Positions 5,937 through 29,914 of a DNA stretch of 36,417 bases are shown here, piece after piece. The notes under the pieces were generated by a model that saw nothing but the letters and a program-made list of their open reading frames with translations, was not told the origin of the DNA and searched no databases. The stretch is taken from the IMG/VR virus record IMGVR_UViG_3300021087_000039, positions 1 to 36,417 of that record, one strand, 5' to 3'. Source of the DNA: a virus. Numbering within the stretch: position 1 is the stretch's first letter; the number at the start of each line of letters is the position of its first letter. The position numbers and the translations under genes were made by a program.

Positions 5937-6236
5937 ATGGCTGCTCGTAGCACTCCCGGCAACTCGTACTCTGCTTCTGCGGAATTAGAATTTTGTGAAT
6001 CGCAAATAGCGAAAATGATGTTCATCCTTGGTTTGGACTGGGCCAATATTGACTCCACATCCATTGATGACATGCTTGACAAAATCAATGAAAACTATTG
6101 GCTGAATCCAAATGGTGGTGCTGAAGACGGACAAGGACGCGCCCCCGAAGACTATCTAAGAGCCAATAACAACCTTCTCGCAATCTTGACACGACGCAAC
6201 TGGTATTGGCGTCACATGGCCATAGGGGTGTCGTAA
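5937..6236 (+). CDS. Small hypothetical protein
   Basis: 99 residues. It contains FCESQIAKMMFILGLDWANI, similar in style to the I/LCHTLGVDPATV segment of the 5481 gene, so the small genes of this operon may belong to one loose family. The C-terminus carries NWYWRHMAIGV. Its TAA stop overlaps the ATG of the next gene (TAATG at 6234-6238), which supports translational coupling to the methyltransferase-like gene. Confidence 0.65.
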   Translation: MAARSTPGNSYSASAELEFCESQIAKMMFILGLDWANIDSTSIDDMLDKINENYWLNPNGGAEDGQGRAPEDYLRANNNLLAILTRRNWYWRHMAIGVS

Positions 6237-6982
6237 TGGCTCACGCATGGTTTGAAACCAACCTGATCTCCAAGTCGCTATCCACCCTCGGAGACAAGCA
6301 CGATCAAGCGTGGAACGATTCAACCGTTGACTACATCAACGCGTGGTCAGCGCACGACACTGCCATGAATACTGACCGGCGAGCAGTAGCCACAGGAAAC
6401 GACGCCGAACTTCATTGGTGGACGATGATTCAAACCAACATTCCCGGCTGGGACGCAAATGTTTGGTCAGCCGAAATGCGAAGCGCATTGTTTACAGAAT
6501 GCATTAACGCCACCAACTCTTTGTGGGCAATCGGGATACCAGAAACGTGGATGACGGAGCAAATGAACGACCGCTCCAAGAACGTCACACTAGTCAATGA
6601 CCGATTTCTGTACGGATATGAACAGTTTTACCTGTCCCAAAGTGCAGCGTCCGCATACTCTGACACACAGTATTCCACCATGGACGTTCAAGATATTCTG
6701 GCTGGCACCAACGCCGGAACCTTCGACTATGTTCATGTTCGCATGGCGGATCTAATTGACACTTCCACCAAGTTGGTAGACGGCTACTTGTCCATGCTGG
6801 CTGTCGGTGGAATCATGCACATCGAAGACTCTGGCATGTTCGGACAAATCTACACCAACCATCAGGCGCTACATAAACATTACGCAACCAGAACCAACAG
6901 GCATCTTTTGACCAAGGACAACCTGCTGGTATTCCATCTCGTCACCGATGATGGAACAACCATCATAAAACGAGTGTCTTAA
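6236..6982 (+). CDS. Possible class I methyltransferase-like protein
   Basis: 248 residues from the ATG overlapping the upstream stop; a TTG 30 nt earlier is open but less likely. The N-terminal half is Trp- and His-rich and unrecognised. The C-terminal half has the look of the second part of a Rossmann methyltransferase: FDYVHVRMADLID (strand 4-like), a helix, then MLAVGGIMHIED (pGG-type turn and strand 5). No clear glycine-rich SAM-binding motif I is seen, so catalysis is doubtful. It lies directly before three 2OG oxygenase genes and, further on, a clear methyltransferase. The fold assignment is by pattern only. Confidence 0.5.
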   Translation: MAHAWFETNLISKSLSTLGDKHDQAWNDSTVDYINAWSAHDTAMNTDRRAVATGNDAELHWWTMIQTNIPGWDANVWSAEMRSALFTECINATNSLWAIGIPETWMTEQMNDRSKNVTLVNDRFLYGYEQFYLSQSAASAYSDTQYSTMDVQDILAGTNAGTFDYVHVRMADLIDTSTKLVDGYLSMLAVGGIMHIEDSGMFGQIYTNHQALHKHYATRTNRHLLTKDNLLVFHLVTDDGTTIIKRVS

Positions 6983-6999: not shown

Positions 7000-8025
7000 A
7001 TGGCCTTAGTTAGAGAGTACCCCGGATGCAGAACCCCGATCCCTTACGTCTCCGAAGCAGACTGTGAATACATCGGAGGTCTAGAGGTACACGACTATGG
7101 GGCAGGGGTTACCGTATTTCGCAATGTCATAGACGTAGACCAGCCTAGATTATTTGAATACATAGACAAATATGCCGTGCATTCAACGCCGGGAGTGTTT
7201 CTCAAAGAAGAAAACGGCGAGCAGTGGTGCGAAGACCTAGAAGGCAGGAAGCATCCAGTAGCAACCTATTACAGAAATCCATATCGACTTGGTGGATTTG
7301 GTAACAGCAAACCCGTCATGGATAAAACTCCTAAGGACATCGCGGAGTTCTTCTATGAAAACGAGAATCAAATCTATCTGTGCCTAATGAAATACATAGA
7401 CATATACACCCATGTTCTCAACTCATTGTGGTGGCGCTTTAGGGGCAATGTTCTCAAGTATTATCCCAACGGAGCAATCGGAATGCATAGCGACAATGAC
7501 ACCAGTCGCAAGACCAGAGACGGGCAGCGATACGAAACTGATCGTCCTGAAGCCATCTTCCAAGTTCTTTCCACCATCACCTATTACAACGATTGCGTGG
7601 ACACGGAAGAAGAACTAGACGGAACCAATTTCACGGGTGGAGAGATGTGGTTTCCGTTCCTTAACAATCTTACTTACAAGCCGCGTACCGGAGACATTCT
7701 GTTCTTCCCCGCGAACTATGTTGGTTCACACGGTGTACGAGACATCACTGGTGGCATAAGGTACGACTACCAATCTGTGTTTGGTCAAGGAATACATACA
7801 GACGAACCTTCCCCTTTGGTTCCGATTTATGAATCAGATGCCGGACATTGGTGTCAGGCCATTTACCTGCCATGGCTTCATCAGGATTGGGAAAGGTTTA
7901 CCCAATCTCCACATTCAAGGTGGAACACCAAAGGCGAAGGACCACCCAACGGTGAGATCAATCCATTATTGCGACCTGTCGAATCCGACCCAGAAGGCCC
8001 ACTGATGTCCTATGAACATATTTGA
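7000..8025 (+). CDS. 2-oxoglutarate/Fe(II)-dependent oxygenase, paralogue 1
   Basis: 341 residues. The double-stranded beta-helix core carries the iron triad His163-x-Asp165 (GMHSDND) and His244 (VGSHGV), with Arg254 (GGIRYDY) ten residues later as the likely 2-oxoglutarate anchor. Between them, NFTGGEMWFPF and a KPRTGDILFFPANY stretch are typical of prolyl-4-hydroxylase-like folds. The N-terminal lead-in (GAGVTVFRNVIDVDQ) recurs in four other proteins here. Such enzymes use O2 and 2-oxoglutarate to hydroxylate proteins, nucleotides or small molecules; the substrate cannot be read from the sequence. Its last 14 nt overlap the next oxygenase gene. Confidence 0.9.
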   Translation: MALVREYPGCRTPIPYVSEADCEYIGGLEVHDYGAGVTVFRNVIDVDQPRLFEYIDKYAVHSTPGVFLKEENGEQWCEDLEGRKHPVATYYRNPYRLGGFGNSKPVMDKTPKDIAEFFYENENQIYLCLMKYIDIYTHVLNSLWWRFRGNVLKYYPNGAIGMHSDNDTSRKTRDGQRYETDRPEAIFQVLSTITYYNDCVDTEEELDGTNFTGGEMWFPFLNNLTYKPRTGDILFFPANYVGSHGVRDITGGIRYDYQSVFGQGIHTDEPSPLVPIYESDAGHWCQAIYLPWLHQDWERFTQSPHSRWNTKGEGPPNGEINPLLRPVESDPEGPLMSYEHI

Positions 8026-9031
8026 TGCTTCCACCCCTGAAATAACCGATGACACCTTAAGGGAAATCCAAAACCTAGAGGCAGATCATCTTGGTGGAGG
8101 CGTAGTCAAATTTGGCAATACCTGCACAGTGGACCCCTCATTCTTGTCTTGGGTTGACGACAACGCTTCTGAAGCCTTTGAACAGAACTGGACTTACGAA
8201 ACAGACGAAGCCGGAAACACCTACGCCCTTAATATTGATCGCAACAAGTTCTCGCTTGAACAAGTCAAGATGGTGCCGACTCGTCTGTTACAGCCGGTCA
8301 AACACGACACTCCTCAAGACATCGTTGACATCTTTCAACATTACGAAGCCGCCATCTACAAATGCCTAATCAAATATATAGACATGTTCCCTCTTGTGTT
8401 GGGCACTATTTGGTGGCGTTCTAGGGGACACGTTCTACATTACGATCCGGGCAGTTTCTTGGGGGTACATAACGACAACGACGCCAACTACAGAGCCTTG
8501 GATGGGCAACGATTTATTCCCCACGCACAGAATGGCTCTCGTCAAACACTTGCCATTATCTTGTATCTAAACAACGGCATCAAAGATCCCGAAGAATTGG
8601 ATGGCACCAACTACCTCGGTGGGGAAATCACATTCCCTTATCTGGACATTGAACACCAAGGACAAATAGGCGACGTTCTAATCTTCCCATCCAACTTCAT
8701 GGCATCGCATGGAGTGAACACAGTTATCGAAGGCACTCGGTACTCGTATCTAGAATTCCTATCTCACGGAAGCCCCTCGCCGGAAGTAATGGTCGAAGTG
8801 TTTGAACCCGACGAAATACAAGCATGGTGTGAGCCGCACTGGCTAATGGGCATCTACGAAGATTACGCCAAGTACGCACTCAAGACGCAGCAAGGCAACA
8901 CGGACAGAACAGCAACTAGTTCTGTCAACCCGGTGTTTCAAAACAGATCGCTAGAGGGGGAGGTAGGACTAAAGAAGGCGTATGCCCACGAAGATGTTGT
9001 AGAACAGAATCTGGTAAGAGGACAGTCGTGA
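8012..9031 (+). CDS. 2-oxoglutarate/Fe(II)-dependent oxygenase, paralogue 2
   Basis: 339 residues. All expected active-site residues are present: His153-x-Asp155 (GVHNDND), His233 (ASHGVNT) and Arg243 (EGTRYSY). It aligns along its length with the preceding gene: a HLGGGVVKF lead-in, IWWRSRGHVLHY before the first His, an L-D-G-T-N-Y-L-G-G-E-x-x-F-P segment, and DVLIFPSNF. A C-terminal extension of about 80 residues lacks recognisable motifs. The start lies inside the upstream gene and the stop overlaps the GTG of the next (GTGA), so the three are probably translated together and arose by tandem duplication. The substrate is unknown. Confidence 0.9.
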   Translation: MNIFDASTPEITDDTLREIQNLEADHLGGGVVKFGNTCTVDPSFLSWVDDNASEAFEQNWTYETDEAGNTYALNIDRNKFSLEQVKMVPTRLLQPVKHDTPQDIVDIFQHYEAAIYKCLIKYIDMFPLVLGTIWWRSRGHVLHYDPGSFLGVHNDNDANYRALDGQRFIPHAQNGSRQTLAIILYLNNGIKDPEELDGTNYLGGEITFPYLDIEHQGQIGDVLIFPSNFMASHGVNTVIEGTRYSYLEFLSHGSPSPEVMVEVFEPDEIQAWCEPHWLMGIYEDYAKYALKTQQGNTDRTATSSVNPVFQNRSLEGEVGLKKAYAHEDVVEQNLVRGQS

Positions 9032-9786
9032 CGCCGGAAATGACAAATGAAATTCTTGATGAAATACTCGGTTACAGGGACAAGATCAGCAATCTGGGAG
9101 GTGGGATCGTACAGTTCCACGATGTAGTGGAAATAGATCAACTCACACTATTGCCTCATCTTGATCAACTGGCCGAAGAATCCCATACCTCCCGATGGGA
9201 ATATACAACCGACGAAGATGGACATGATATTGCCTTGAACGAAGACGGGTACCAATTCCTATTACACGAAATCAACGAAGCCCCTATCCCTATCCGCCAC
9301 CCAGATACACAACTATTCAAAGACGCGTTATACAAATGTGCCCTCAAATACATCGACCTGTTTCCTGTGATGATGCTGGAAACCGTCTGGTGGCGAAGCG
9401 AGGGTCACTACCTCAAATACCCCACTCGTTCTTATCTGGGCAAGCACAGCACCAACGTCCAAACCATCAGCCTTCAACTATTGCTTAATGATGACTATTC
9501 CGGTGGGGAAATGAAATATCCATACCTTGATGTGGCCGTGGAAGCAAAGGCCGGGGACGTAGTTGTGTCCCCCTGCAACTTCGTGGCTGCCCATGAAATC
9601 AAACCTATTACTGAAGGAAACAGATATTCCTATTTAGAGTTCTACTCACAAGGAAGTCCAGAAAAGGGGATTCCCATGCTCAGTAATATCTTCAACGATT
9701 ACGATAAGTTGCTGGACCGAAGAAACAATCTTTTAGCGGCTTACGGCATGCGACACGGTTTGATGAATTTCGGTCACAGTGATTGA
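9028..9786 (+). CDS. 2OG/Fe(II) oxygenase-like paralogue 3 with altered metal motif (H-S-T)
   Basis: 252 residues, GTG start overlapping the upstream stop. It is clearly a paralogue of the two preceding genes (NLGGGIVQF lead-in, VWWRSEGHYLKY, YSGGEMKYPYLD, GDVVVSPCNF), but about 35 residues between the metal motif and the core strands are missing. His140 (GKHSTNV), His189 (AAHEI) and Arg199 (GNRYSY) are kept, but the iron-binding Asp is replaced by Thr142. In SyrB2/WelO5-type non-haem iron halogenases the equivalent Asp is Ala or Gly, freeing a site for halide; Thr at this position is unusual. It may be a halogenase-like, changed-chemistry or catalytically dead regulatory paralogue. The frame is intact, which argues against decay. 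Confidence 0.8.
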   Translation: MTPEMTNEILDEILGYRDKISNLGGGIVQFHDVVEIDQLTLLPHLDQLAEESHTSRWEYTTDEDGHDIALNEDGYQFLLHEINEAPIPIRHPDTQLFKDALYKCALKYIDLFPVMMLETVWWRSEGHYLKYPTRSYLGKHSTNVQTISLQLLLNDDYSGGEMKYPYLDVAVEAKAGDVVVSPCNFVAAHEIKPITEGNRYSYLEFYSQGSPEKGIPMLSNIFNDYDKLLDRRNNLLAAYGMRHGLMNFGHSD

Positions 9787-9787
9787 G

Positions 9788-10570
9788 ATGAAACTGAACC
9801 TCGGCTGCAACTTCCATCAACCAGAAGGATGGATCAACGCAGACATTAGGGAAGAATTCAATCCTGACGTATTGTTACCAATGCCAGAAGAACCCCTGTG
9901 GGAGGGCGCCTTATCTACAAAGACTACCAATAATCCCCTGCCATGGGAGAACGACACGTTCGATCAAGTATTACTATCTCATGTATTAGAGCACATTTGG
10001 TTGGAGGAGGTGCCCTCATTTTTGCATGAGATTCGACGTATAACCAAGACTGGCGGTCAACTACTTATTATTTGTCCTGATGTAAACACATTAGTGCGAA
10101 GGTGTGTGGGCCTTAATAGTGTTGGCTGCATGGGCCACGATGCGGACGGCCATAACTGGTATATCGAACCCCCGATGGACAGAAACGTTGAAAAACCATG
10201 GTCTACGGAAACTGTAATAGAACACCTATTTAGCGAACTGGTATTGGAAGATGATCCACGTTTAAGAGATGCGGCCGCGGCACGCATGAACGACGGAATT
10301 AGAAGTCAGTTCGGCAAACTGGCACTACCTCATTCTGATCATAAATGGAATTCATACGGAAATCGACTACTTGAAATAGTGCAGGAGGTTTATCCCTCTT
10401 CCGAATTGTTGGGAACCAATGGCATGCCCGAAGAAATCAGAGCGCAGGGCAGAGAAACTAGCACCCACGGCAATCCCTACGAATTCCAATGGACGGATCC
10501 CAACAGTGGATATGTGTGGGACACCACCAGTTGGACCAGCGCTACATGTTCGGTGCTGTCAACTCGCTGA
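9788..10570 (+). CDS. SAM-dependent class I methyltransferase
   Basis: 260 residues from the ATG at 9788, one nt after the preceding stop. Motif I is at the extreme N-terminus (KLNLGCN), followed by GWINADI as the acidic end of strand 2. FDQVLLSHVLEHI (strand 4) and a GGQLLIICPDVN segment (strand 5) follow, which is the Methyltransf_11-type layout. It would transfer a methyl group from SAM; the acceptor is unknown. It is the last gene of the rightward operon and its 3' end overlaps the converging oxygenase gene by 29 bp. A role in tailoring the product of the neighbouring oxygenases is inference. Confidence 0.85.
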   Translation: MKLNLGCNFHQPEGWINADIREEFNPDVLLPMPEEPLWEGALSTKTTNNPLPWENDTFDQVLLSHVLEHIWLEEVPSFLHEIRRITKTGGQLLIICPDVNTLVRRCVGLNSVGCMGHDADGHNWYIEPPMDRNVEKPWSTETVIEHLFSELVLEDDPRLRDAAAARMNDGIRSQFGKLALPHSDHKWNSYGNRLLEIVQEVYPSSELLGTNGMPEEIRAQGRETSTHGNPYEFQWTDPNSGYVWDTTSWTSATCSVLSTR

Positions 10571-11450
10571 TTTGACTGCTCGGCGCTCCATCTGAACCAT
10601 GCACAGGAGGAACCCAATCCCCCTCCTTGTTGCGCCATGCGTCCACATGCGTTTGACTCTGTCCATCTATCGGCGTGCCTTGACAATAGAACTGTAGATA
10701 AGAAACACGATCTCCATTAGTAACAGTTTCCACAGAATGAGATCCAATATAAGACGACGGATAAAATGCCACTGTTCCAACTGGGAACTTCTCTTTATGC
10801 TCTGCGTGGGGGAAATACATCGACCCACCTTCAGCGGTGTCCCTTAAAATTATAGAACCCGTTACGACAGTCTTAGTTGGAAACTCATTTACAGGCTTGT
10901 CATTCTCATCCGCCGGACCATACCCCCACATGCTGTCACCGCGCTCCACGGCCTGATCGGAATGCGGCCCAAGCGAATGTCCCTCAGAATAAATAGCAGC
11001 ATGACTAGGGGTTCGATACCAGATCGAAACACGAATCTCTGGATACATCACCATATACTCCTCTAAGCACATGGCCAAAACTGAATCCAAATATTCGACA
11101 AAGGCTTTATCTTCCGGCTCGGCGTCGTACAATAATCCAACAAGACGTAACGGAGTCGTGTTGAATTGTTCGGGGGTGAACTTGTACCCCCCACGATTGA
11201 TGTAGTTACCATCCTCATCAATCGTAAACTCTTCAGCCGTTTTCAAACGACGATCAGTCTTTCCTTCAAGATTTCCCACGAAGGCAGAACGCCGTTCTAT
11301 CCAACCTTCTAAAAAGTCTTGATCTATTTCAGCAGCATCTGGAAAAACAACTAATCCTGCTTTGTGCTTGATCCGCGTGAATTTGTACCCGCCGCGATTA
11401 GCCGAACGGGACCGAATGTTCATATTCTTATCGGCTATCCAATCACCCAT
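10542..11450 (-). CDS. 2-oxoglutarate/Fe(II)-dependent oxygenase, paralogue 4
   Basis: 302 residues. The iron triad is His163-x-Asp165 (GPHSDQ) and His238 (GSHSVE), with Arg248 (GDRVSY) as the 2-oxoglutarate ligand. It is related to the plus-strand trio: AGLVVFPDAAEIDQ lead-in, FTIDEDGNYINRGGYKF, VSIWYRTPSH before the first His, and a VSYLQFYCQGTP end. The motif NRGGYKFT occurs twice (residues 18-25 and 85-92), so the N-terminus carries a partial duplication. It is the terminal gene of the long leftward operon; its start overlaps the upstream gene by 8 nt and its end overlaps the opposing methyltransferase. The substrate is unknown. Confidence 0.9.
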   Translation of the reverse strand: MGDWIADKNMNIRSRSANRGGYKFTRIKHKAGLVVFPDAAEIDQDFLEGWIERRSAFVGNLEGKTDRRLKTAEEFTIDEDGNYINRGGYKFTPEQFNTTPLRLVGLLYDAEPEDKAFVEYLDSVLAMCLEEYMVMYPEIRVSIWYRTPSHAAIYSEGHSLGPHSDQAVERGDSMWGYGPADENDKPVNEFPTKTVVTGSIILRDTAEGGSMYFPHAEHKEKFPVGTVAFYPSSYIGSHSVETVTNGDRVSYLQFYCQGTPIDGQSQTHVDAWRNKEGDWVPPVHGSDGAPSSQISELTAPNM

Positions 11451-12108
11451 TCGCTTCTATCCAACTGTCATCAGTTCGTGAGTATTTTTCAATATCCTCT
11501 GGGGGAGGAACGTTTTCTTCCATCATTTGACGCTTGTATGCCTTTGCGTCGCCATCTACTATCTCAACATGTAAGGCACTCAAGGTGTCCACGCCTTCTT
11601 CTGACATCAGCGCTACAACATCCTCAGCAGAATCGCCGTTCACAAACAACATACGACCATCCCGATCTGGATACCCATAAAGAGAACCCGACACATAGGA
11701 CGCTCCATTTGAATTCACATAATCGGCCAGAGCGAGTTCCCAACGAGCCTGAGCAGGATCAGAAATAATACTGTTGCAATCTACATAAATGCCTTTGAAG
11801 CCAGCCTCCATGACTTCTTTCGCCACTGGAAATTCAACGACTTCACCTTCGGTGTCTAAACCGTAGACAGCGAACACACCGTGTCCGCCACAGAGACAAA
11901 AGATCACATCTACTTCATCCACCAATTTCTGGATGGTTCCAACGTCTTCAAATTCCTGCCCCCGCTCTTTAGTTTCGTCAGAGCGACCGTCGGTAGCGAC
12001 GAACACCTCATGCCCGACGCTCTTAAGCACATTACCCACGGCTGTAGCCATTCTTCCGGGGTGCAGTATTCCAACTTTAACTGGGAGGATGCTCAAGGTT
12101 GTACCCAC
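11443..12108 (-). CDS. NAD(P)-binding beta-hydroxyacid dehydrogenase-like protein
   Basis: About 221 residues from the GTG at 12108; a TTG at 12096 or ATG at 12153 are alternatives, all overlapping the upstream oxygenase gene. The Rossmann start VGILHPGRMATAVG corresponds to the GxxGxG loop of 6-phosphogluconate/3-hydroxyisobutyrate dehydrogenases. GHEVFVATDGRS is strand 2, VDVIFCLCG strand 4, and YVDCNSIISDPAQAR followed by a SYVSGSLYGYP segment matches the family's substrate-loop region. The helical C-terminal domain of full-length members (about 290 residues) is missing, as is an obvious catalytic Lys. It could oxidise a hydroxylated product of the adjacent oxygenases or only bind a cofactor. 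Confidence 0.75.
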   Translation of the reverse strand: MGTTLSILPVKVGILHPGRMATAVGNVLKSVGHEVFVATDGRSDETKERGQEFEDVGTIQKLVDEVDVIFCLCGGHGVFAVYGLDTEGEVVEFPVAKEVMEAGFKGIYVDCNSIISDPAQARWELALADYVNSNGASYVSGSLYGYPDRDGRMLFVNGDSAEDVVALMSEEGVDTLSALHVEIVDGDAKAYKRQMMEENVPPPEDIEKYSRTDDSWIEANG

Positions 12109-12925
12109 TTTCCATAAATACGTTTGTCGATATCTTAGCACCACCCGGATCAACGGATGGATCTACGGCCATCTCGTTGACTTCTGGGTTCGGAGTTCCC
12201 TGACAATACCATCCGACATGGCTATATCTTGAACCTCCGCTCACCAGAGAAACCGCGTGGGAGGCCATGTAGTTGGACGGGAAAATCAACAGATCACCCT
12301 TGGAGGGTTTGTATTGAATGTCCAAGTATCCGAAATGGACGACTCCCCCTGTGAAATTGGTCCTATCCAATTCTTCCTCGGTTTCTACATGATCGTTGAA
12401 AAAAGCAATAGTTGAAACCACGGTTCTGGTAGCGATCTGATCTGTCGGAGTGGGTGAACCGTAGGCGTAGTCGGTGCTGGTGTCGGCGTGCATTCCCAAG
12501 TAGCCACCTTTTGGATACACCAAGATGTGGCTTTTGATCTTCCACCAAATAGACATGCCCGCTATGGGAAAAAGGTGCAAGTAATCCCACAGGCAATCGT
12601 CCTTGGCATCCTCCAACTTTTTGAGAACTGCCTGTATCTCAGGTCTATCGTCCGCTTGGGTATAGGCGCAATGTTGAGGCATCACTTCTATTGATTCTGT
12701 TGGAAAGAAATACCCATTGCGATTTATGTACCCGTCCTCACCGCTGATCGGATCTTTGCCGGGGACATACATCGTGTCCCTCTCCCTCATCGCAGCCTCC
12801 TCTGAGTAGGCTCTGAGAAGATCCCAGTCCGTTGAGATGTGTTCCCTGTATAAGACCACCCCTCCGCCTAGATGCTCTCCCCTGCCGCCCTTGGGCTGCC
12901 AAGTATCTCCAAACCCTAAACTCAT
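12077..12925 (-). CDS. 2-oxoglutarate/Fe(II)-dependent oxygenase, paralogue 5
   Basis: 282 residues; the ATG at 12925 overlaps the upstream TGA (ATGA) and is preferred over an ATG 45 nt earlier inside the upstream gene. The active site is complete: His146-x-Asp148 (GMHADT), His223 (ASHAVS) and Arg233 (GSRYSH). It shares the HLGGGVVLY lead-in, GEDGYINRNGYFF, MSIWWKIKSHILVY and NFTGGVVHFGYLD segments with the other members of this paralogous family. It lies between a TauD-like oxygenase gene and the dehydrogenase-like gene in one transcription unit. The substrate is unknown. Confidence 0.9.
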   Translation of the reverse strand: MSLGFGDTWQPKGGRGEHLGGGVVLYREHISTDWDLLRAYSEEAAMRERDTMYVPGKDPISGEDGYINRNGYFFPTESIEVMPQHCAYTQADDRPEIQAVLKKLEDAKDDCLWDYLHLFPIAGMSIWWKIKSHILVYPKGGYLGMHADTSTDYAYGSPTPTDQIATRTVVSTIAFFNDHVETEEELDRTNFTGGVVHFGYLDIQYKPSKGDLLIFPSNYMASHAVSLVSGGSRYSHVGWYCQGTPNPEVNEMAVDPSVDPGGAKISTNVFMESGYNLEHPPS

Positions 12926-13746
12926 CTGTAAATGCCTATCAACGAGGGATCCATCAGCGGAACCTTCCACGCCTCCTCATGCCCTCCGTGGTATACCCCC
13001 CGATCAAACACCCGCTGCCCCAATTCAAATCCCCAAGTGACTGCATGTGCCATACGCATCCCTGCGAACATCACCATGTCACCCTGTTCCCATGACCACC
13101 ACTCTTGGTTTGTTTCGTCGTACAAATAATTCTGAATCCACGCATTGATTTCTACGAGGTCATCTTCTGTTAAACCATTACAAGTTTCTATGTCAATGCG
13201 ATATGGAGGCTGGATAGTGTCTTTGTATCCCTGCATGTGAAGTATCAACTCTCCTGTTAACCCATCCTCTTTTATCAACTTGACGGGAGAATGGATCAAC
13301 GGCGACTTGAAGTGTGCTACTTGTTCTTCTACGGTGCGAGCGTCTTTTATTCCTTCTCTCCATTTGTTTGGAAGAGATGTGTACGCACCATGCATGTCTA
13401 CGAATCCGGTCATCCCTTTATCCTGATCCACCTCAAAGGTGTGCATGTTCATGGCGATGACTACGGCGGGATGTTCCTTAAAGGTGTCTTCCACATGCCA
13501 TGTGAGAAATAATTTGGCCTTCCCCAACTCGGGGTCTTTCATACATTGATGAAATCTCGTCCGATGATCTACATCCTTAGACACAGGGCTATCATCAAAC
13601 CCCATACCAATCAAAATATCTGTAAATTCTTGCCGCTTCAAACCGATCTCACGAAACCCCAACACTAAATTTTCCCGCAACAACGACCTGAAATATTCGG
13701 GGTCTTTCCTCAAATCATCCCCAGTAACTCCTTTAAGTTCAATCAT
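12922..13746 (-). CDS. TauD/TfdA-family dioxygenase with H-x-E metal motif
   Basis: 274 residues from the ATG at 13746, which overlaps the upstream gene's 3' end by 8 nt. It has the TauD layout: a Leu-rich start (EYFRSLLRENLVLGFREI), a metal motif TWHVEDTF with His84 and Glu86, a TGFVDMHGAY strand, then a MFAGMRMAHAV segment with His234, and Arg245/Arg249 in the 2OG-binding tail. Most TauD enzymes have H-x-D-x-T-F; an H-x-E variant is known in clavaminate synthase, so activity is plausible. TauD-type enzymes mostly act on small molecules, which differs from the prolyl-hydroxylase-like neighbours. The substrate is unknown. Confidence 0.85.
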   Translation of the reverse strand: MIELKGVTGDDLRKDPEYFRSLLRENLVLGFREIGLKRQEFTDILIGMGFDDSPVSKDVDHRTRFHQCMKDPELGKAKLFLTWHVEDTFKEHPAVVIAMNMHTFEVDQDKGMTGFVDMHGAYTSLPNKWREGIKDARTVEEQVAHFKSPLIHSPVKLIKEDGLTGELILHMQGYKDTIQPPYRIDIETCNGLTEDDLVEINAWIQNYLYDETNQEWWSWEQGDMVMFAGMRMAHAVTWGFELGQRVFDRGVYHGGHEEAWKVPLMDPSLIGIYR

Positions 13747-14383
13747 TCCAATACTGCAAATGCGATCCGCGATCATGCAAAATATTTAGACTTTCCAAGG
13801 TGTCTGTCAAAAAGGACTCTCTCAGATCATCACCCATCTCAAACATCGCAGCACACACATAATCCAAGATCGCCTGAAGCAACGCCTCGTAAGTTACTCC
13901 GTGGTCATCCGCTGGTTCCGGATACAGATGATCCCTAGTAAGCGGCCTGTCCCCTTTCCTATAACCGCCCGCTCCGGAGCCTCGCCAATCCGGATAATGC
14001 CATTCGTTGCCGATATGACGCCGTTCTTGAGGAGTCTCAAATATCTTCCGTAGCGTCCCTTCTTGACTGCCGAAGTCCTCTTGCTCATTCAAGGTATATA
14101 TCAAAGTGCCATTGCGACTGAAGATGAAGGCTTTGGCAGAGGAATGCAGCCTGCGATATGGCTCTACCTTGTTCCACTCATACGATCCCCAAGAAGCAAT
14201 CGTCCACTGGAAATCTTCCCCCAAATCCTGTAACCGTTGACACAGGGCAGTCAACTCCGGAGATTCCAATCCGAAAATAACTAGAAGCATTTTCCCTTCG
14301 TATTGCTCAAACAGTGAGTCACCGTAAAGACCCCTCGTGTATACCCACGGAATATGATCGCCCTCTCTAAATTCAAGACTCAT
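13739..14383 (-). CDS. Redoxin-like protein lacking the usual active-site cysteine
   Basis: 214 residues; the ATG at 14383 overlaps the upstream TAA and follows AGGAG. The N-terminal half resembles the AhpC/peroxiredoxin fold: FREGDHIPWVYT, a LFEQYEGKMLLVIFG strand, an SPELTALCQRLQDLG helix and AKAFIFSRNGTLIYTL. At the position of the peroxidatic Cys it reads GLESPEL, so the usual catalytic residue is absent; Cys48 lies further along the helix. The C-terminal half is unique and holds an EWHYPDWRG segment rich in Trp, Tyr, Gly and Arg. It may be a structural or binding partner rather than a peroxidase. A related-fold gene (glutathione-peroxidase-like) lies 4 kb upstream in the same operon. Confidence 0.65.
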   Translation of the reverse strand: MSLEFREGDHIPWVYTRGLYGDSLFEQYEGKMLLVIFGLESPELTALCQRLQDLGEDFQWTIASWGSYEWNKVEPYRRLHSSAKAFIFSRNGTLIYTLNEQEDFGSQEGTLRKIFETPQERRHIGNEWHYPDWRGSGAGGYRKGDRPLTRDHLYPEPADDHGVTYEALLQAILDYVCAAMFEMGDDLRESFLTDTLESLNILHDRGSHLQYWND

Positions 14384-15156
14384 TACTGCTCCTTGGGCTG
14401 AACAGGGCATTTACCAATGTCCGCTAAAATCGGATGCCCCCCATACGCCGGACCGATACGTTCATCTTTTTCATTCAAACCAGTGCGTATGCCCCCCGCC
14501 CACACCCACGGTTCATCTATTTCCTTCTGGGCTTTTGCCGCCCCATAGGCGGCTCGCGCTTTCCTCAACTCTGGATCATCTCCCATATCCCTAGTTGCAA
14601 ACTCCACCGATGGCAACAGATCATCGTGGTAGAACTGAAAGAACATGAACGGCATCCCTTTGGGAAACCGCACGGGAGTATCGAACTTCGTTATCAACCA
14701 GTTCATATTCCATTGGTCAGGCCACCAACTGGTAGGAATAGAGGCTGTCAACGGAACCGCACCATCAATAAAGTAGTTAGGTGTGCCTGTGATCCATGTG
14801 CTTACACCCTCTGGTGTTTCCATAGACCAACCAGTATCAAAAGAAATTATGTTGATGATGCTGGGAGAAACTATAGGACGGACATAGGTGCCTCCCCGCT
14901 CATGTGTGTGAGTAATCGTTTCTCCGCTCAATACCCTCGGCACTGTTCCATGAAATCCAGATCCGTATTCAGGGGCATCTACCTGAACGACTACATCTTG
15001 TTGTAACTCCAACTCCCAACCATGTATGTTGGCTGATGTCATAGGCAAACACTTATACGCATGTTTATTGTAAGTGTCATCCATCCAGTCGCGTCTCGGC
15101 AACGCCTGCCGGATCGGCGGCGGATTATCGTGAGCGCGAGTGAGAGTTACTTTCAT
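14383..15156 (-). CDS. DUF6065-like protein, copy 1 (unknown function)
   Basis: 257 residues; the ATG overlaps the upstream stop (ATGA). It shares an architecture with two other proteins in this window: LPRRDWMDDTY-like start, a W-E-L-E-L-Q strand, a SPSIINIISFDTGWSM strand, W-I-T-G-T-P-N-Y-F, then IPTSWWPDQWNMNWLI and F-P-K-G-M-P-F-M-F-F-Q. The strand-rich pattern resembles proteins grouped as DUF6065, as far as I recall. No catalytic motif is evident. Copies sit beside 2OG oxygenase genes here and beside the halogenase gene elsewhere in the window, so a shared role with these enzymes (substrate presentation or an unrecognised activity) is likely by association only. Confidence 0.7.
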   Translation of the reverse strand: MKVTLTRAHDNPPPIRQALPRRDWMDDTYNKHAYKCLPMTSANIHGWELELQQDVVVQVDAPEYGSGFHGTVPRVLSGETITHTHERGGTYVRPIVSPSIINIISFDTGWSMETPEGVSTWITGTPNYFIDGAVPLTASIPTSWWPDQWNMNWLITKFDTPVRFPKGMPFMFFQFYHDDLLPSVEFATRDMGDDPELRKARAAYGAAKAQKEIDEPWVWAGGIRTGLNEKDERIGPAYGGHPILADIGKCPVQPKEQ

Positions 15157-15851
15157 GCGTGAAATGGTGTCGTAATCACGATCTGATCGGTTTCTGTGAA
15201 GGCGGGCGCTTCATACTGTGCGGTACTGGGATCTTGGTGATTGCGGTCGTTGTAGTCATACATCGTGACCGCCGAATACTTTGTACCCTTCGTCACGGGC
15301 AGAGAAGCGTGGGCATACACGAAGGTTGACGGGTGTACCAGCACATCACCGAACTCAGGTAAAAAGTTCATGTTCTGATGGGGCATGTGATACTCCCCGC
15401 CCTCGTAATCGTCATTGATATATCCGATAGCCGATACTGTGGCAACGTAGGAGAAGCCGTGATCGGCGTGGACGGCAAAGTGCTGTCCCTCGTTGTATCG
15501 AACGAAGTTGGTTGCTTCCTCAAAATCTAGTTGAAGGTTGTAACAGCCTGCGTAATGCTTCACGCACTCTCGTATTCCTGTTATTACTTCGTCATAGACC
15601 GCAGCCGCAGCCGAAAACTCTTCCGGGCAAGTTTCTAGATCGGAAGCACGCATCTTGAAGTCGGAGCAATCCCGGTAGTCGGGCATCTCTTCCATGTCAC
15701 CGACGAGGGCTTTCTTCCATGAGTAATACTCATGTTCACTGTCCCCGATACAGTCCTCCAACCTCTCCACAAAGTTGGAGTCTTCCGGCCAGACCTTCTT
15801 GTAGAGGGCAATCCCAGAAGCGGGATGGCAGACGTATCCTGCGTATTCCAT
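15153..15851 (-). CDS. Prolyl-4-hydroxylase-like 2OG/Fe(II) oxygenase
   Basis: 232 residues. It has His128-x-Asp130 (VHADHG), His181 (AHASLPV) and Lys191 (TKYSAV), the H-x-D...H...K pattern of the prolyl-4-hydroxylase (P4Hc) class, in which Lys binds 2-oxoglutarate. YINDDYEGGEYHM between them is a class hallmark. The preceding NFVRYNEGQHF is typical for the strand before the first His. This subgroup differs from the GGGVV-type paralogues, which use Arg. It is preceded by GGAG and sits one base after the upstream oxygenase stop. Prolyl hydroxylation of a nearby Pro-rich protein (19122-19619) is an attractive but untested role. Confidence 0.9.
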   Translation of the reverse strand: MEYAGYVCHPASGIALYKKVWPEDSNFVERLEDCIGDSEHEYYSWKKALVGDMEEMPDYRDCSDFKMRASDLETCPEEFSAAAAVYDEVITGIRECVKHYAGCYNLQLDFEEATNFVRYNEGQHFAVHADHGFSYVATVSAIGYINDDYEGGEYHMPHQNMNFLPEFGDVLVHPSTFVYAHASLPVTKGTKYSAVTMYDYNDRNHQDPSTAQYEAPAFTETDQIVITTPFHA

Positions 15852-15852
15852 A

Positions 15853-25276: not shown

Positions 25277-25289
25277 GTTGACCCCGGTA

Positions 25290-25745
25290 CTACGTCAAAT
25301 ATGCCGACCCTGAAAATGCCGCAGAAAATGTCAGTGTAACCTGCGTTTCACTATCGTATTGTACCCCACCTATCACCACTGTGCCGGTAGAATCAACAAC
25401 TGTTACAGACGGATGGCCACCTAATGTGTGTGTAACAGTCCAAGTCGTCGCCGCTGATCCCTGCGTGTGGATATGTCGATCTGCACCAGTCAAAGGGATA
25501 TATTCTGAAGGCCATGCCCCAGAAGTCTTCGGACCATACAAACGAGATGCACCACTTCCCATCTGGTGGATGTACCAATTTCCCTCAGCCCCAGTAGCAG
25601 CATTAGGTTCCGTGCTACCTGTCAACAGTCCGCCCTGCTGACCGCCAGCAGTAGCAAGAACCTTCACATAAACTGTGTCTGGAGTAGCCGCAGACGTAGA
25701 AACAACATTTCGAAGTTCTTCAACCGTCACATTAAAAATAGTCAT
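25290..25745 (-). CDS. Small virion/tail-tip protein
   Basis: 151 residues. A polar N-terminus (NVTVEELRNVVSTSAATPDTVY) precedes GNWYIHQMGSGASRLYGPK and a C-terminal beta domain (WTVTHTLGGHPSVTVVDS, GGVQYDSETQVTLTF, SGSAYLT). That end domain is frequent at the tips of phage fibres and resembles the C-terminus of the 23726 product. The ATG overlaps the upstream stop by 4 nt. It is probably a fibre or baseplate accessory protein. Confidence 0.75.
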   Translation of the reverse strand: MTIFNVTVEELRNVVSTSAATPDTVYVKVLATAGGQQGGLLTGSTEPNAATGAEGNWYIHQMGSGASRLYGPKTSGAWPSEYIPLTGADRHIHTQGSAATTWTVTHTLGGHPSVTVVDSTGTVVIGGVQYDSETQVTLTFSAAFSGSAYLT

Positions 25746-26089
25746 ATCGTCACATTCTCATCCAAGTTGAAGTTACCTTGTAGCAATCTTTCTACTACTC
25801 CGGTACCACCAATCAACTCTAAATCATATATGCCACTGAACTGTAGCGCCGCAGTATCCGCAGCAGAAATAGTTAAACTTACCGTTCCAGTGTTCGGCGT
25901 GATCGCAATCCGACCATTTTCCGTGGTCAGTTCGACCAGAGCGGAAACCGCTTCCATATCCTTACGCACCTGCATGCGAGCAGTGAAGCCTGACAAATCA
26001 CGAATGCTGTCGTCAAAGTTCGTTACTTCTATATCCCGCGCGAAAGTAGAACCTTGTTCGCAAGTAAAATTATAAATACCAGCAGGCAT
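25742..26089 (-). CDS. Small phage virion protein (baseplate/fibre connector type)
   Basis: 115 residues. The layout IYNFTCEQGSTFARDIEV, L-S-G-F-T-A-R-M-Q-V-R, LTTENGRIAITPNTGTVSL, AADTAALQFSGIYDLELIGG and VVERLLQGNF is a recurrent small beta-rich protein found next to tail-fibre genes in many phages. Its exact position in the virion is not known to me. AGGAG lies 6 nt before the ATG and a promoter-like sequence lies just upstream, so it is likely the first gene of the fibre operon. Confidence 0.8.
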   Translation of the reverse strand: MPAGIYNFTCEQGSTFARDIEVTNFDDSIRDLSGFTARMQVRKDMEAVSALVELTTENGRIAITPNTGTVSLTISAADTAALQFSGIYDLELIGGTGVVERLLQGNFNLDENVTI

Positions 26090-26110
26090 TCAAAGACTCC
26101 TTACAGATAG

Positions 26111-26139
26111 TTTATAAAATCTAACCCGATCCCTAACAA
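26111..26139 (-). promoter_or_regulatory. Sigma70-like promoter for the tail-fibre operon
   Basis: Reading the minus strand, TTGTTA (26139-26134) and TATAAA (26116-26111) are separated by exactly 17 nt, matching four of six and five of six positions of the bacterial consensus. It lies in the 73-bp gap between the halogenase cassette and the fibre genes, about 20 nt before the start codon of 25742-26089. Confidence 0.5.
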
Positions 26140-26162
26140 ACTCCCTCTCCAAAAAGTCTACA

Positions 26163-26420
26163 TCATTCATTGCTCTCACCCGGATGAAAGTGAGGGTTAT
26201 AAAATTGATCATCAAAGAACTTATGACCATACTGCAACAGGCCGAACACCGTCCAAGGAGTCGTGGTGGGACCAGTGGAAACCAACAACGACGTACCGTC
26301 GTCGGTTAGAATTTCTGCTATAACAATGTAATCTTTAACGACAACAGGTAGGTCTTCAAATTTATCTGCAACTTCGGAATCTACCAGTTGTTTACCGGGG
26401 TCTTGAGCGGGTTCTTCCAT
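26163..26420 (-). CDS. Small hypothetical protein of the halogenase cassette
   Basis: 85 residues. An acidic N-terminus (EEPAQDPGKQLVDSEVADKFEDL) is followed by a beta-like part (VKDYIVIAEILTDDGTSLLVS) and an aromatic/His-rich end (FGLLQYGHKFFDDQFYNPHFHPG). It may be a small beta protein similar to those common near phage fibre genes, or an accessory of the enzymes. It follows the DUF6065-like gene by 9 nt and is the last gene before the fibre promoter. No family recognised. Confidence 0.6.
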   Translation of the reverse strand: MEEPAQDPGKQLVDSEVADKFEDLPVVVKDYIVIAEILTDDGTSLLVSTGPTTTPWTVFGLLQYGHKFFDDQFYNPHFHPGESNE

Positions 26421-26429
26421 TCCCCAATA

Positions 26430-27191
26430 CTAACCCATAGGACATTTCCCCGCATCAGCCTCGCGCTGGTGCTTGCGATAAAGACCCTTTCTATTGCCAG
26501 CCCGGAATCCGAAGGTGCCCACACCGCGGTTCCAACCCATATCCCACATTTCTTTGAGTCCCATGATGATCGTCTTGACCTTGTCGTTCCTCTTAATAGG
26601 AATCAAATGGTATAACGGAGTTCCCGCACGCACATTAAATGATTCCCCCGTCATCACACGAATAACAGCATGTAGGTTGTGGTAGTAATCCGTGTTCACG
26701 ATGGCTGGTAGAACTTCATAACGAGCATCAGGCTCATAAGCCACCGGTAGAACCAGCATCGAATAGCCGGGAGCGGTCTTATACAGATAGGGGGACACCA
26801 ATTTCAAGTACGCTGCCTCCGGACGCGCCCTACCATCATTGATGGGGGCACCTTCGCAAGAGTCGTAACTAAAGCGTTCCACACCAAAAAAACCATCCGC
26901 TGGTGTCGCCACAAAATCCGTATGGCCCATGGGATCAAACTGCATGTCACACCACAGCGGCACAGTAATGCCCGTGGAGAGATAGTCCTGAATCCCCTTA
27001 CACCCAAGCATCGTAGTACCCCGCTCCTTCGGCATGTTCTTCCACCAGTCGGGCCAAGTGGTGCCGTTGATTACGGGAGGATTCTCCAATAGGCGATAAT
27101 CCTTAGGGATCATCAATATTTCTCCGGGCTTGACCTTGGGCCAATCACGGTAAGTCCTGATTTTATCTGAGTTCTTTAAGTGTTTCAGCAT
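26430..27191 (-). CDS. DUF6065-like protein, copy 3 (unknown function)
   Basis: 253 residues. It is closely related to the 16511-17269 product: YRDWPKVKPGEILMIPKDYRLL, CKGIQDYLSTGITVPLW, SPYLYKTAPGYSML, YEPDARYEVLPAIVNTDYYH, RVMTGESFNVRAGTPLYHLIP and a basic G-L-Y-R-K-H-Q-R-E-A-D-A-G-K-C-P end. The ATG lies 29 nt inside the halogenase gene's 3' end, so it is probably translated with it. Copies beside a halogenase gene and beside oxygenase genes imply a common accessory role. No catalytic motif is visible and the function is unknown. Confidence 0.78.
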   Translation of the reverse strand: MLKHLKNSDKIRTYRDWPKVKPGEILMIPKDYRLLENPPVINGTTWPDWWKNMPKERGTTMLGCKGIQDYLSTGITVPLWCDMQFDPMGHTDFVATPADGFFGVERFSYDSCEGAPINDGRARPEAAYLKLVSPYLYKTAPGYSMLVLPVAYEPDARYEVLPAIVNTDYYHNLHAVIRVMTGESFNVRAGTPLYHLIPIKRNDKVKTIIMGLKEMWDMGWNRGVGTFGFRAGNRKGLYRKHQREADAGKCPMG

Positions 27192-28650
27192 GATCTCTCG
27201 TTGATCTTGAATATTTAGCCTGTTTCAAATCATATAAGTAATTCTCCACCCTGTCTACCAAACCATACGCTGCTATCGAATCCAATGCCACTTCAGCGCT
27301 GAGTAGTCCCTGTCCCTGAGCAACATGATAAAGATGAAGCATCCTAAACAGCAGCCACGGCCCCTGTATGTCCGTATTCTCCGGTTGACGCTCCGACCAA
27401 ACTCCCAACAAATGTTCCAAACTATCTGGAATGGGCATACTTTTCTGTTCACACCAAAATTCGGTATCTTCACGATCACTTATATAATGAAGCCTAATCA
27501 TATCTCTAATATTCAACATCATATTATTCATCATAATATTATACTGCTTTATGCTGTATCTGTTCTCTCTCCGAAACGAAGCCAAAAACCCCAGCAATGC
27601 AAAAGATTGATTGATCGTTGATCCAATGGAAGTAGCCTCAAGAGGTTCAACGAAGGAACTTGACAAACCCACCGCCACACAATTTCCAACCCACATCTTT
27701 TCCAGATAACCGGGATCAAATTGAAAATGTTTGTAGCCCGATAGTTGGATGTCCAATAGTTCTTCCATCTCGGACACGGCATCTTCCTCTGAGCAAAACT
27801 GTGAAGAATAGACGTAGCCCCTTCCTCGTTCCGTCTGTGTCGGAATCTCCCAAGCCCAACCGTTCCTCATGGCCGTAGCCCGCGTGTACGGACGAATCTC
27901 TCCACTGGGGTCTGCATCGAAGCGAAAGGCAATCGCAGAGTCGGTCAACAGGTACTCGCTGAAAGAGTTCCATTTCATATCAGGTAGATTCGACATCAAA
28001 ATCCTGTTGAAACCAGAAGCGTCTATCCAGAAATCAGCCTCAACCGGATGCTCCAAAGTATCTATGTCAACGCTTTCTATCCAATCTGAATCGGATAGAT
28101 TCACATCCCAAACTTCGCCCTCAACAATTCTAATATTACGCTTTTTACATTTCAAAGTCAAAAATTCATTCAACAGGTGCGTATCAAAATGGAATTGATT
28201 GACACCATCATGTGGATTTTCTGCCAGAACAGTATTGTTCCTCGGATCACCGGACATCGTGGCATCGGAGAGAAGAATCCCCTTCGCCTGCAACCCCCCA
28301 TACGAACCATAAAATTCTCCAACACGAGGATCGCCCTTCGTTGTACCCGAGATCGAATGAAAATAGTCTGGCGTATGATGAGTCCATCCCTCAAAGCGAA
28401 TACCCTTTTTATGGGTAGCACTCGTGGCGGGAATCAGATCAGCGACCTTGATATCAACGAAGTTCATAAAGCCTCGCCACTGTTCCGTAGACCCCTCCCC
28501 TACTCCTATGGTGCCGATTTTGTCAGACTTGATAATAGTTATTTGATATTCAGGAAATGCTTTTCGCAGGATCAGGGCGCATATCAATCCGGCGGTTCCC
28601 CCGCCAACAATCACTACTCTTCGATCAATAATCCCCGTTGTATCGTGCAT
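27163..28650 (-). CDS. Tryptophan-halogenase-like flavoenzyme
   Basis: 495 residues, the normal length for flavin-dependent halogenases. VVIVGGGTAGLICAL (12-26) is the FAD-binding GxGxxG, IGVGEGSTEQWRGF follows, and Lys81/Lys82 in ATHKKGIRFEGW sit where the catalytic Lys of PrnA/RebH lies. NGWAWEIPTQ contains W-x-W-x-I-P (265-270), the halogenase signature, and GLSSSFVEPLEATSI (328-342) carries the conserved Glu. It should use FADH2, O2 and halide to make HOX and halogenate an electron-rich ring; no flavin reductase gene is near, so the host would supply reduced flavin. Cyanophage Syn10 VirX1 is a precedent for viral halogenases. The substrate is unknown. Confidence 0.88.
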   Translation of the reverse strand: MHDTTGIIDRRVVIVGGGTAGLICALILRKAFPEYQITIIKSDKIGTIGVGEGSTEQWRGFMNFVDIKVADLIPATSATHKKGIRFEGWTHHTPDYFHSISGTTKGDPRVGEFYGSYGGLQAKGILLSDATMSGDPRNNTVLAENPHDGVNQFHFDTHLLNEFLTLKCKKRNIRIVEGEVWDVNLSDSDWIESVDIDTLEHPVEADFWIDASGFNRILMSNLPDMKWNSFSEYLLTDSAIAFRFDADPSGEIRPYTRATAMRNGWAWEIPTQTERGRGYVYSSQFCSEEDAVSEMEELLDIQLSGYKHFQFDPGYLEKMWVGNCVAVGLSSSFVEPLEATSIGSTINQSFALLGFLASFRRENRYSIKQYNIMMNNMMLNIRDMIRLHYISDREDTEFWCEQKSMPIPDSLEHLLGVWSERQPENTDIQGPWLLFRMLHLYHVAQGQGLLSAEVALDSIAAYGLVDRVENYLYDLKQAKYSRSTRDHAETLKELR

Positions 28651-28653
28651 AGC

Positions 28654-29259
28654 CTACTGAAACCAAGTCACTAGTACATACTTCTCCCCTTCTTCCACCG
28701 GAAGGGCTTTATGCGAATATGGAAAACAGGCTGGCATCAATACGAGAGTTCCGGCTGTTGGTTTAATCTCAACATCAAATAACGGAACTGCCAATTCTCC
28801 ACCAACGTAATCGTCATTCAAATAAAGAAGCAACGACAGCAAACGCATATTTGTGGAACTTGCATCGGCGTGCATCTGATATTCCGCTTTGTTTGCATAT
28901 CTCAAACAACGCAGTCCTTGGTTCCTTTGCAGTTTCAGATTGAAGGCCGACCGATAGTTGTGGATTTGCACTTCGTATGCATTTATCAGATCCGACAAAT
29001 GATTTCTCAAATCTACAACATGCGAATCGTTGGCATACTGAAGCCTGTCTCCGAGGATTTCATGGAAATCCATTTCAACACTGGTTCTATGATCGGAGAC
29101 GACATTCCTAGTTCCCTCTTTGGGGCCATAAACTAGGGATCTCTTCCACGGTGCCACAGAAGGGTCCATATCCCCAACTATTTTTATCTTATCCAGCAAG
29201 CCTTCCGCTTCTGAATAAAATCCATCCCATACACATATGCCCGGCGCTATTTGTTCCAT
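28654..29259 (-). CDS. Prolyl-4-hydroxylase-like 2OG/Fe(II) oxygenase
   Basis: 201 residues, a compact single domain. The triad is His130-x-Asp132 (YQMHADASS) and His183 (YSHKALPV), with Lys193 (GEKYVLV) binding 2-oxoglutarate. LLYLNDDYVGGELAVPLFD between them is typical of the P4H class, as is the lead-in CLRYANKAEY. The stop is 3 nt from the halogenase start and the upstream oxygenase gene is 1 nt away, so the three form one unit. The substrate is unknown. Confidence 0.9.
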   Translation of the reverse strand: MEQIAPGICVWDGFYSEAEGLLDKIKIVGDMDPSVAPWKRSLVYGPKEGTRNVVSDHRTSVEMDFHEILGDRLQYANDSHVVDLRNHLSDLINAYEVQIHNYRSAFNLKLQRNQGLRCLRYANKAEYQMHADASSTNMRLLSLLLYLNDDYVGGELAVPLFDVEIKPTAGTLVLMPACFPYSHKALPVEEGEKYVLVTWFQ

Positions 29260-29260
29260 C

Positions 29261-29914
29261 TTAATCCTTCATCTGAGCCAAAATATAAATCTTCTCACCA
29301 GCAGTATTCGCCAATGACCGGTGTTCGGTATGCCATGTCGTGGGCATCATCAACACTTCGCCCTTCTTGGGTTTATACTTGACTCTTTCACCTTCCGAAT
29401 CACGAATATTTTTGAACTCTATCTCTCCGCCTTCATAGTTGTCATTGACGTAGAACAAGTATGTTCCCGTTCTTCCACCTTCTCGCGTATCCTGATGAAA
29501 ATCGAAATACCCCTGTCCATCTGGATATATCAGAAGTTCGTCATTGGCCCCAGATCGGAAATGATAACCAATACCCAATTCCCTTGCAAGGATGTGCTTC
29601 ATCTCAATCAAGGTATCCCATACGAGTTCATGTAGAATCGAATACTCCCCACGCAACTCTTTGAGCATTCCTGCGGTATAGCAAAACCGTTTCTCGATGT
29701 CTACATAAGGAGGAAGGCTTTTCCCTTCCTTATTTTTAGGATACATTTTCGACAGTTCAAAGTAATCATTTTCTGATCCGTCATAATAATCATCAATATA
29801 TTTCTGCGCTACTTTACAAATAGCACCAGCAGCAGTAAAATTGAAAACATAAACACTAGGACAAATTTCCCTGACCCGTTCACCCTGACCCAAAGTCACC
29901 ATCATTTGTGACAT
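29261..29914 (-). CDS. Prolyl-4-hydroxylase-like 2OG/Fe(II) oxygenase
   Basis: 217 residues. The triad is His140-x-Asp142 (FDFHQDTR) and His198 (HTEHRSLA), with Lys208 (GEKIYIL) as the 2-oxoglutarate ligand. YFVNDNY-type core (FYVNDNYEGGEIEF) and a KYKPKKGEVLMMP strand are classic for the P4H fold. The N-terminal half, including FTAAGAICKVAQKYID, is helical and specific. It is the first enzyme gene downstream of the His/Glu/Gly-repeat fibre gene (2-nt gap), and the adjacency suggests, without proof, that this protein may be its target. Confidence 0.9.
   Translation of the reverse strand: MSQMMVTLGQGERVREICPSVYVFNFTAAGAICKVAQKYIDDYYDGSENDYFELSKMYPKNKEGKSLPPYVDIEKRFCYTAGMLKELRGEYSILHELVWDTLIEMKHILARELGIGYHFRSGANDELLIYPDGQGYFDFHQDTREGGRTGTYLFYVNDNYEGGEIEFKNIRDSEGERVKYKPKKGEVLMMPTTWHTEHRSLANTAGEKIYILAQMKD

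Follow-up and report, generated by a model that had tools for sequence, protein, structure and literature searches.

The 36,417-bp window analysed here, a complete IMG/VR virus record (IMGVR_UViG_3300021087_000039) classed as a linear fragment, contains eleven genes for 2-oxoglutarate (2OG)/Fe(II) oxygenases that sit among genes for the tail and virion (with matches to Mtd_N and to PHROG families for tail fibres and head decoration) and beside a gene whose product ends in an array of (aromatic)FPP repeats. An enzyme battery next to such a tail suggests that these phages may chemically remodel their own tail proteins. An initial annotation, made from the DNA letters alone, had described eleven oxygenase genes, ten with a complete metal triad and one altered, interleaved with tail genes; the open reading frames (ORFs), all present where it had placed them, the Pfam and family profiles, the residues and the surrounding matches agree with this description. 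Its remark that the density of such genes is unusual holds against control viral loci, which carry 0.07 2OG genes per 10 kb compared with 11 in 36 kb (~3 per 10 kb) here, but not against cyanophages, for which clusters have already been reported, with ten 2OG genes in S-CREM1, in a cluster read as antibiotic synthesis, and 24 in S-SCSM1 (PMC9964418).

Eight of the oxygenase genes, named here like the others by their first coordinate, match PF13640, some of them as single genes under the curated cut-off. On the plus strand these are 7000..8025 (conserved triad), 8012..9031 (6e-9) and 9028..9786, and on the minus strand 10542..11450 (4e-4, under the curated cut-off, triad present), 12077..12970 (2e-10), 15153..15851 (1e-9), 28654..29259 (1e-14) and 29261..29914 (7e-10). 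TauD-type genes (PF02668) lie at 12922..13776 (6e-16), with HxE in place of HxD, and at 17279..18247 (2e-20), both on the minus strand. The last gene, 15853..16593 (minus strand), was assigned by its family profile; it lacks a Pfam match of its own, and PF13640 is matched by 23 of the 31 members of its family. Its true start is probably downstream of the annotated GTG, because the ORF overlaps 16511. The metal triad and the 2OG-binding Arg or Lys are kept in 10 of the 11 products. In the family alignments, H128, D130, H181 and K191 are invariant for 15153 (A2), which like 28654 has Lys at the 2OG site, as are H160, D162, H220 and R230 for 15853 (A3). The alignment that includes 9028 (A5) has invariant His, His and Arg and an Asp in 34 of 35 members, the sole exception being 9028 of the window, where HST replaces HxD; this variant could be a pseudoenzyme or have a different metal-site chemistry. 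Ratios of nonsynonymous to synonymous substitution (dN/dS) against close orthologues are 0.07-0.20 for the PF13640-type genes with measurable dS, and these oxygenases are therefore under purifying selection.

The repeat gene lies at 19122..19619 (minus strand) and encodes a virion-type protein with a PASTA N-terminus (PF03793, E 2e-8) and a C-terminal [F/H/Y]FPP array (19122..19385). The initial annotation had seen no gene that would settle what the enzymes act on; a candidate substrate is in fact present in this tail. The array spans 87 aa, and it is conserved as peptide and not as DNA because its 21 units use 15 different 12-nt words, a codon diversity that also rules out chance low complexity as its origin; dN/dS for the gene is 0.09. 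Among 133 distinct arrays, which were picked by motif so that conservation by position is partly by construction, 1504 of 1505 units have Phe at position 2, and 1502 have Phe, Tyr, His or Trp at position 1. Motif selection does not account for the lack of Leu, Cys, Ile and Val, residues that lie a single base change from Phe. The N-terminal domain of the array gene swaps (PASTA, FN3-like and others) while the array and its neighbours stay, and at island loci that reach far enough [F/Y/H/W]FPP repeats form the end of the small gene preceding the oxygenases, irrespective of its N-terminal domain. At four loci (L142, L143, L186 and L192) the array is followed by what appears, by eye, to be a Hint (intein/hedgehog-type) self-processing domain, and the array might there be cut or transferred; two further loci (L153 and L170) have a tandem pair of XFPP proteins ahead of the oxygenases.

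Two other families accompany the oxygenases. The gene at 14383..15156 (minus strand) encodes DUF6065 proper (PF19541, 3e-36, 125 bits), and relatives (phrog_7084) at 16511..17269 and 26430..27191, both on the minus strand, are tied to it by profile-profile comparison (94%) and not by Pfam, in keeping with the three DUF6065-like genes listed initially. To our surprise, the AlphaFold2 (AF2) model of DUF6065, with a predicted local distance difference test (pLDDT) score of 83, folds like dUTPases: Foldseek matches it to them at probability 1.00, with TM-scores of ~0.6-0.7 when normalised to the target and 0.3-0.4 when normalised to the query. A motif-3-like Asp of dUTPases is retained in the phrog_7084 branch and not clearly in DUF6065. 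Directly beside the array gene is a conserved glutathione-peroxidase-like gene (18255..19112, minus strand), which matches PF00255 slightly below the cut-off (8e-6) and whose family profile matches glutathione peroxidases in the PDB at 4e-32; the family consensus contains an NVAxxCGN segment, the region of the peroxidatic Cys. Of the two thioredoxin-fold genes proposed earlier, this one is upheld, while the other, an island protein at 13739..14410 (minus strand), has no Pfam match.

Is the association between these enzymes and the array conserved? Probing IMG/VR with the halogenase described below, 12077 and DUF6065 yielded 108 non-redundant loci with ~490 2OG-type ORFs by profiles of the window genes, and DUF6065 loci of at least 15 kb hold a median of 8 oxygenase ORFs (range 5-10). 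The order is recognisable, running from a 19622-like tail fibre through the array gene, the glutathione-peroxidase-like gene, 15853-like and 15153-like genes, DUF6065, TauD and more oxygenases to 6206 and 5937. The neighbourhood search proposed with the initial annotation thus found a conserved enzyme set, and a scattered arrangement did not occur. In an enzyme-blind test, a DNA pattern of three XFPP units was run over IMG/VR and gave at least 120 stretches, and 120 loci fetched from IMG/VR by a collagen-type pattern served as control. Among the matches listed, 82 of 118 array loci had a 2OG gene no more than 6 kb away, versus 5 of 120 collagen-type controls (Fisher p 1.6e-28), and 60 array loci had a DUF6065-type gene at that distance, versus 1 control locus. 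Placement among these listed matches was one-sided, such that array genes with at least 3 kb of 3' flank had a 2OG gene within 4 kb in 49 of 61 cases, at a median gap of 123 bp, and only 3 of 50 had one on the 5' side. The collagen-pattern control gave no sign that viral loci with repeats are generally linked to 2OG genes. In the reverse direction, starting from DUF6065, 17 of the 20 distinct loci whose 5' flank was long enough carry the array; of the remaining three, L066 shows an array match right at its edge. Even among 20 selected array records with few or no local 2OG genes, 9 carry a PF13640 gene above cut-off on the contig (up to 11), versus 5 of 39 control records (at most 2 each); all 16 of 16 large island contigs carry 4-11. 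The linkage of enzyme and repeat genes is strong and control-tested.

A scan of 84,980 cellular genomes for the array returned 17 stretches with only 3 real genes, all on phage-like contigs in metagenome-assembled genomes (L241, L246 and L250); the remaining stretches were chance ORFs or untranslated matches. Among 50,697 isolate phages, DUF6065 was unmatched, 12077 had weak matches in 8 records and 15853 in 4, and no isolate carrying the array-linked set, which we call module A, was found at that sensitivity. Two whole records (L126 and L190, 36.8 and 38.4 kb) have an XFPP array and no PF13640 gene on the contig; their genes may lie on a missing part, or the array may dispense with them.

The family profiles of the two core oxygenases point toward protein hydroxylases. 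That of 15153 has as its best PDB match a bacterial prolyl 4-hydroxylase (P4H; 3ITQ/5HV0, 2e-6), that of 15853 matches prolyl 3-hydroxylase 1 (P3H1; 4e-8) and next P4H (9e-6), and that of 8012 matches PKHD-type hydroxylases only. Array composition varies together with the enzyme repertoire, in a correlation uncorrected for phylogeny or multiple testing: His-bearing arrays go with TauD genes (13/18 vs 9/42) and with the 10542 type (7/18 vs 0/42), and Tyr-bearing arrays with the 8012 type (22/30 vs 7/30).

A second set of genes, module B, is centred on a flavin-dependent halogenase (27163..28650, minus strand). The initial call of a halogenase-like gene proved well founded, as this is a full Trp-type enzyme (PF04820, Trp_halogenase, 4e-103) with the GxGxxG motif, the active-site Lys and WxWxIP in place when aligned to Trp 6-halogenase. 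It adjoins the DUF6065-like gene 26430 on one side and the oxygenase genes 28654 and 29261 on the other, followed by a gene for a Gly-rich tail protein with a variable His-bearing middle (29917..31431, minus strand), the candidate substrate of this module and a conserved neighbour of the halogenase in L009-L020. The next gene (31431..32087, minus strand) is a relative of the N-terminal part of 29917. At L009-L019 the halogenase is flanked by 29917 or a relative, at least one 28654-like oxygenase gene and a DUF6065-like gene, and L020 carries both modules. The middle region of 29917 differs strongly among phages, ranging from His-bearing to His-rich; its AF2 structure model (pLDDT 39.7) was too poor and was not used. 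The protein may resemble polyglycine adhesins of the gp38 type. The layout is also found in the isolates Syn9 and Syn10, and S-RIM44, S-CREM1, P-TIM40 and Sf-FP1 share it for the tail protein, halogenase and DUF6065-like gene. In S-CREM1, for which virion proteomics has been published (PMC9964418), the Gly/His-rich proteins are ORFs 64-67. Syn10, from which the halogenase VirX1 comes, carries genes for Gly/His-rich tail proteins, a pair of halogenases and a DUF6065-like protein (L378, 8562-9350, the neighbour of VirX1), followed by PF13759, JmjC_2, PF13640 and DUF6445 genes. The S-CREM1 relative of this DUF6065-like protein is annotated as a triphosphate nucleotidohydrolase, which agrees with the dUTPase-like fold, and the JmjC_2 family includes protein His and Arg hydroxylases. 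The XFPP array was not seen at the cyanophage halogenase/2OG loci read here.

The remaining genes of the neighbourhood differ in how closely they follow the island. The tail-fibre-type gene that adjoins the array gene (19622..23224, minus strand) matches Mtd_N (PF18454, 1e-14) and PHROG tail fibres. At the far end, 6206..6982 (plus strand) is conserved, with 60 relatives in island loci, and weakly O-methyltransferase-like (PF01596, E 0.0099), and its small conserved partner 5937..6236 (plus strand) has 50 relatives. The clear methyltransferase gene of the initial annotation is indeed a class I methyltransferase (9779..10570, plus strand; Methyltransf_11 8e-8, above its cut-off) and is seldom conserved with the island (2 relatives in 108 loci). 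The Rossmann dehydrogenase-like gene at 11443..12153 (minus strand) retains some likeness to that class, but its Pfam match is weak and below cut-off; with 20 relatives in island loci it is conserved in a subset. Pfam and PHROG profile searches of the window genes found no glycosyltransferase or sugar gene. At the window's edge, 2-4294 (minus strand) is an open-ended lipoprotein-like gene of at least 1431 aa with the lipobox LFGCSS and a very long acidic stretch rich in Glu, Asp and Trp, and 4299-4739 (minus strand) encodes a membrane protein with a weak Rz-like spanin match (phrog_739, E 0.003).

What might such a set of enzymes do? The reading we favour, and judge on sequence grounds to be rather more probable than its competitors together, is phage-encoded oxidative tailoring of the phage's own virion repeat proteins, with the repeats as substrates. 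A single system acting on virion or surface repeat proteins had been proposed at the outset; repeat proteins as targets gain real support in that the enzyme set is conserved 3' of an (aromatic)FPP virion gene and the halogenase stands beside a Gly/His-rich tail protein, but instead of a single system there are probably two modules, each with its own partner. In module A, the substrate would be the (aromatic)FPP tail of the 19122-19619 protein, the core would consist of 15853, 15153, the dUTPase-fold DUF6065 and the glutathione-peroxidase-like protein, and the TauD types and the 7000-12077 group would be auxiliary. Before the tail is assembled, or while it is, these enzymes would add hydroxyl groups to the prolines of the array and perhaps also to its aromatic side chains. 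In module B, the halogenase together with 28654, 29261 and the DUF6065-like 26430 would modify aromatic or His side chains in the tail protein 29917. We infer that the purpose is probably adhesion or receptor contact and the solubility of a very aromatic tail. A bolder version, put forward tentatively and in our estimate more doubtful than not, is that a dedicated multi-enzyme line turns the aromatic-proline tail into an adhesive rod, densely hydroxylated and either rigid or similar to mussel glue, while the parallel halogenase module decorates a second tail protein.

Several observations weigh against tailoring of the repeats. The dUTPase fold of DUF6065 is not suggestive of a protein substrate, some array phages lack a 2OG gene on the recovered contig (for example the 36.8 and 38.4 kb records), other tail fibres are usually in the same neighbourhood and could be substrates, the halogenases of P-SSM2 and S-H38 lie outside the module B layout, so that halogenases occur in other contexts too, and the correlation of array composition with repertoire is the uncorrected one given above. 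One hypothesis built on some of these points is that the XFPP array is simply an inert binding or sticky tail, and that the oxygenases have their substrates elsewhere in the virion, for instance in the adjacent tail fibre 19622, or are lodged with it in a common cargo hot spot. The frequency of 19622-like neighbours and the array phages with no 2OG gene would fit; however, control repeat loci in viral contigs come without 2OG genes, placement is strictly 3' at ~123 bp, and a relationship to prolyl hydroxylases suits an array that is half proline, and we consider this explanation unlikely. An alternative hypothesis, also unlikely and given slightly less weight, is that the product of the enzymes is a small molecule bearing hydroxyl, halogen and methyl groups, in line with the proposal of Iyer et al. 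2021 for a jumbo-cyanophage halogenase/2OG/cupin cluster, which they read as a secondary-metabolite system (PMC7824862). VirX1 is reported to halogenate free small aromatics in vitro, but no carbamoyl transferase, nonribosomal peptide or polyketide synthase or carrier gene was seen in the window, and the genes are embedded in a late tail region and accompany the repeat protein rather than biosynthetic genes.

Could the target instead be a glycan of the host surface or virion, or a host protein? The genes are tail-linked and hence possibly receptor-related, and enzymes of the TauD and PF13640 types accept many kinds of substrate; this would nevertheless leave the link with the array unexplained, it finds no glycosyltransferase or sugar gene in the window, and we regard it as quite improbable. 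Modification of nucleotides or DNA, in which DUF6065 would act like a dUTPase and the oxygenases would hydroxylate bases, draws on the fold of DUF6065, on the nucleotidohydrolase annotation in S-CREM1 and on the weak Tet_JBP matches of 2 of 31 relatives of 15853. It is very unlikely in our judgement, as no gene for a base-modifying synthase, kinase or polymerase was found in the vicinity, the set belongs to tail modules and the best structural relatives are protein hydroxylases. Least probable of all is that the enzymes draw down or respond to host 2-oxoglutarate, as published for cyanophage 2OG genes in terms of auxiliary metabolism and 2OG sensing (PMC3037559), which leaves unexplained why several divergent conserved enzymes are fixed behind one repeat gene.

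Clusters of 2OG and halogenase genes in marine phages have so far been read as metabolic, without a substrate, and the enzyme-blind scan ties them to a specific virion repeat in uncultured aquatic phages of many kinds. If tailoring of the repeats is correct, it supplies a named substrate that lends itself to synthesis and direct assay, hints at the natural role of viral halogenases, VirX1 among them, and points to modified protein materials made by phages as a new class. The bolder version would amount to the first known phage system that oxidises and halogenates side chains of its own virion, and would provide VirX1 with a natural protein substrate. To our knowledge, no phage system pairing a dedicated hydroxylase set with a virion repeat has been described, although the enzyme families themselves are known. 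In the open-access PMC literature, DUF6065 was not found in any paper and 'FFPPFF' in four, of which none concerns phages; within that literature the pairing with a virion repeat appears new, and the gene density does not.

How does the island compare with known systems? The closest relatives among phages are the cyanophage halogenase/2OG clusters (VirX1 of Syn10, S-CREM1 and the S-SSM6a cluster of Iyer et al. 2021), which share Gly-rich tail proteins, one or more halogenases, a DUF6065-like gene and a same-direction run of 2OG/JmjC genes; their oxygenases belong partly to other families (PF13759, JmjC_2), and they have been interpreted in print as antibiotic or metabolite synthesis or as auxiliary metabolism. 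Clusters for ribosomally synthesised and post-translationally modified peptides (RiPPs) likewise place a ribosomal substrate beside several tailoring enzymes; the substrate here would be a virion protein, and no RiPP leader peptide, protease, exporter or recognition domain was found among the window genes searched. Mussel foot proteins and plant extensins are Pro- and aromatic-rich repeat proteins that become adhesive or structural on hydroxylation, an analogy only, since they are eukaryotic, secreted and modified by other enzymes. Hydroxylation of collagen and other proline-rich proteins (P4H, P3H1, LH3 and the bacterial P4H 3ITQ/5HV0) employs the same 2OG/Fe(II) superfamily, with 15153 and 15853 nearest to P4H and P3H1 and a proline-rich repeat as candidate substrate. 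The island differs from it in being phage-encoded, in an array of (F/Y/H)FPP rather than Gly-X-Y, and in loci that often combine 5 to 10 enzymes, or more, with DUF6065 and glutathione-peroxidase-like proteins.

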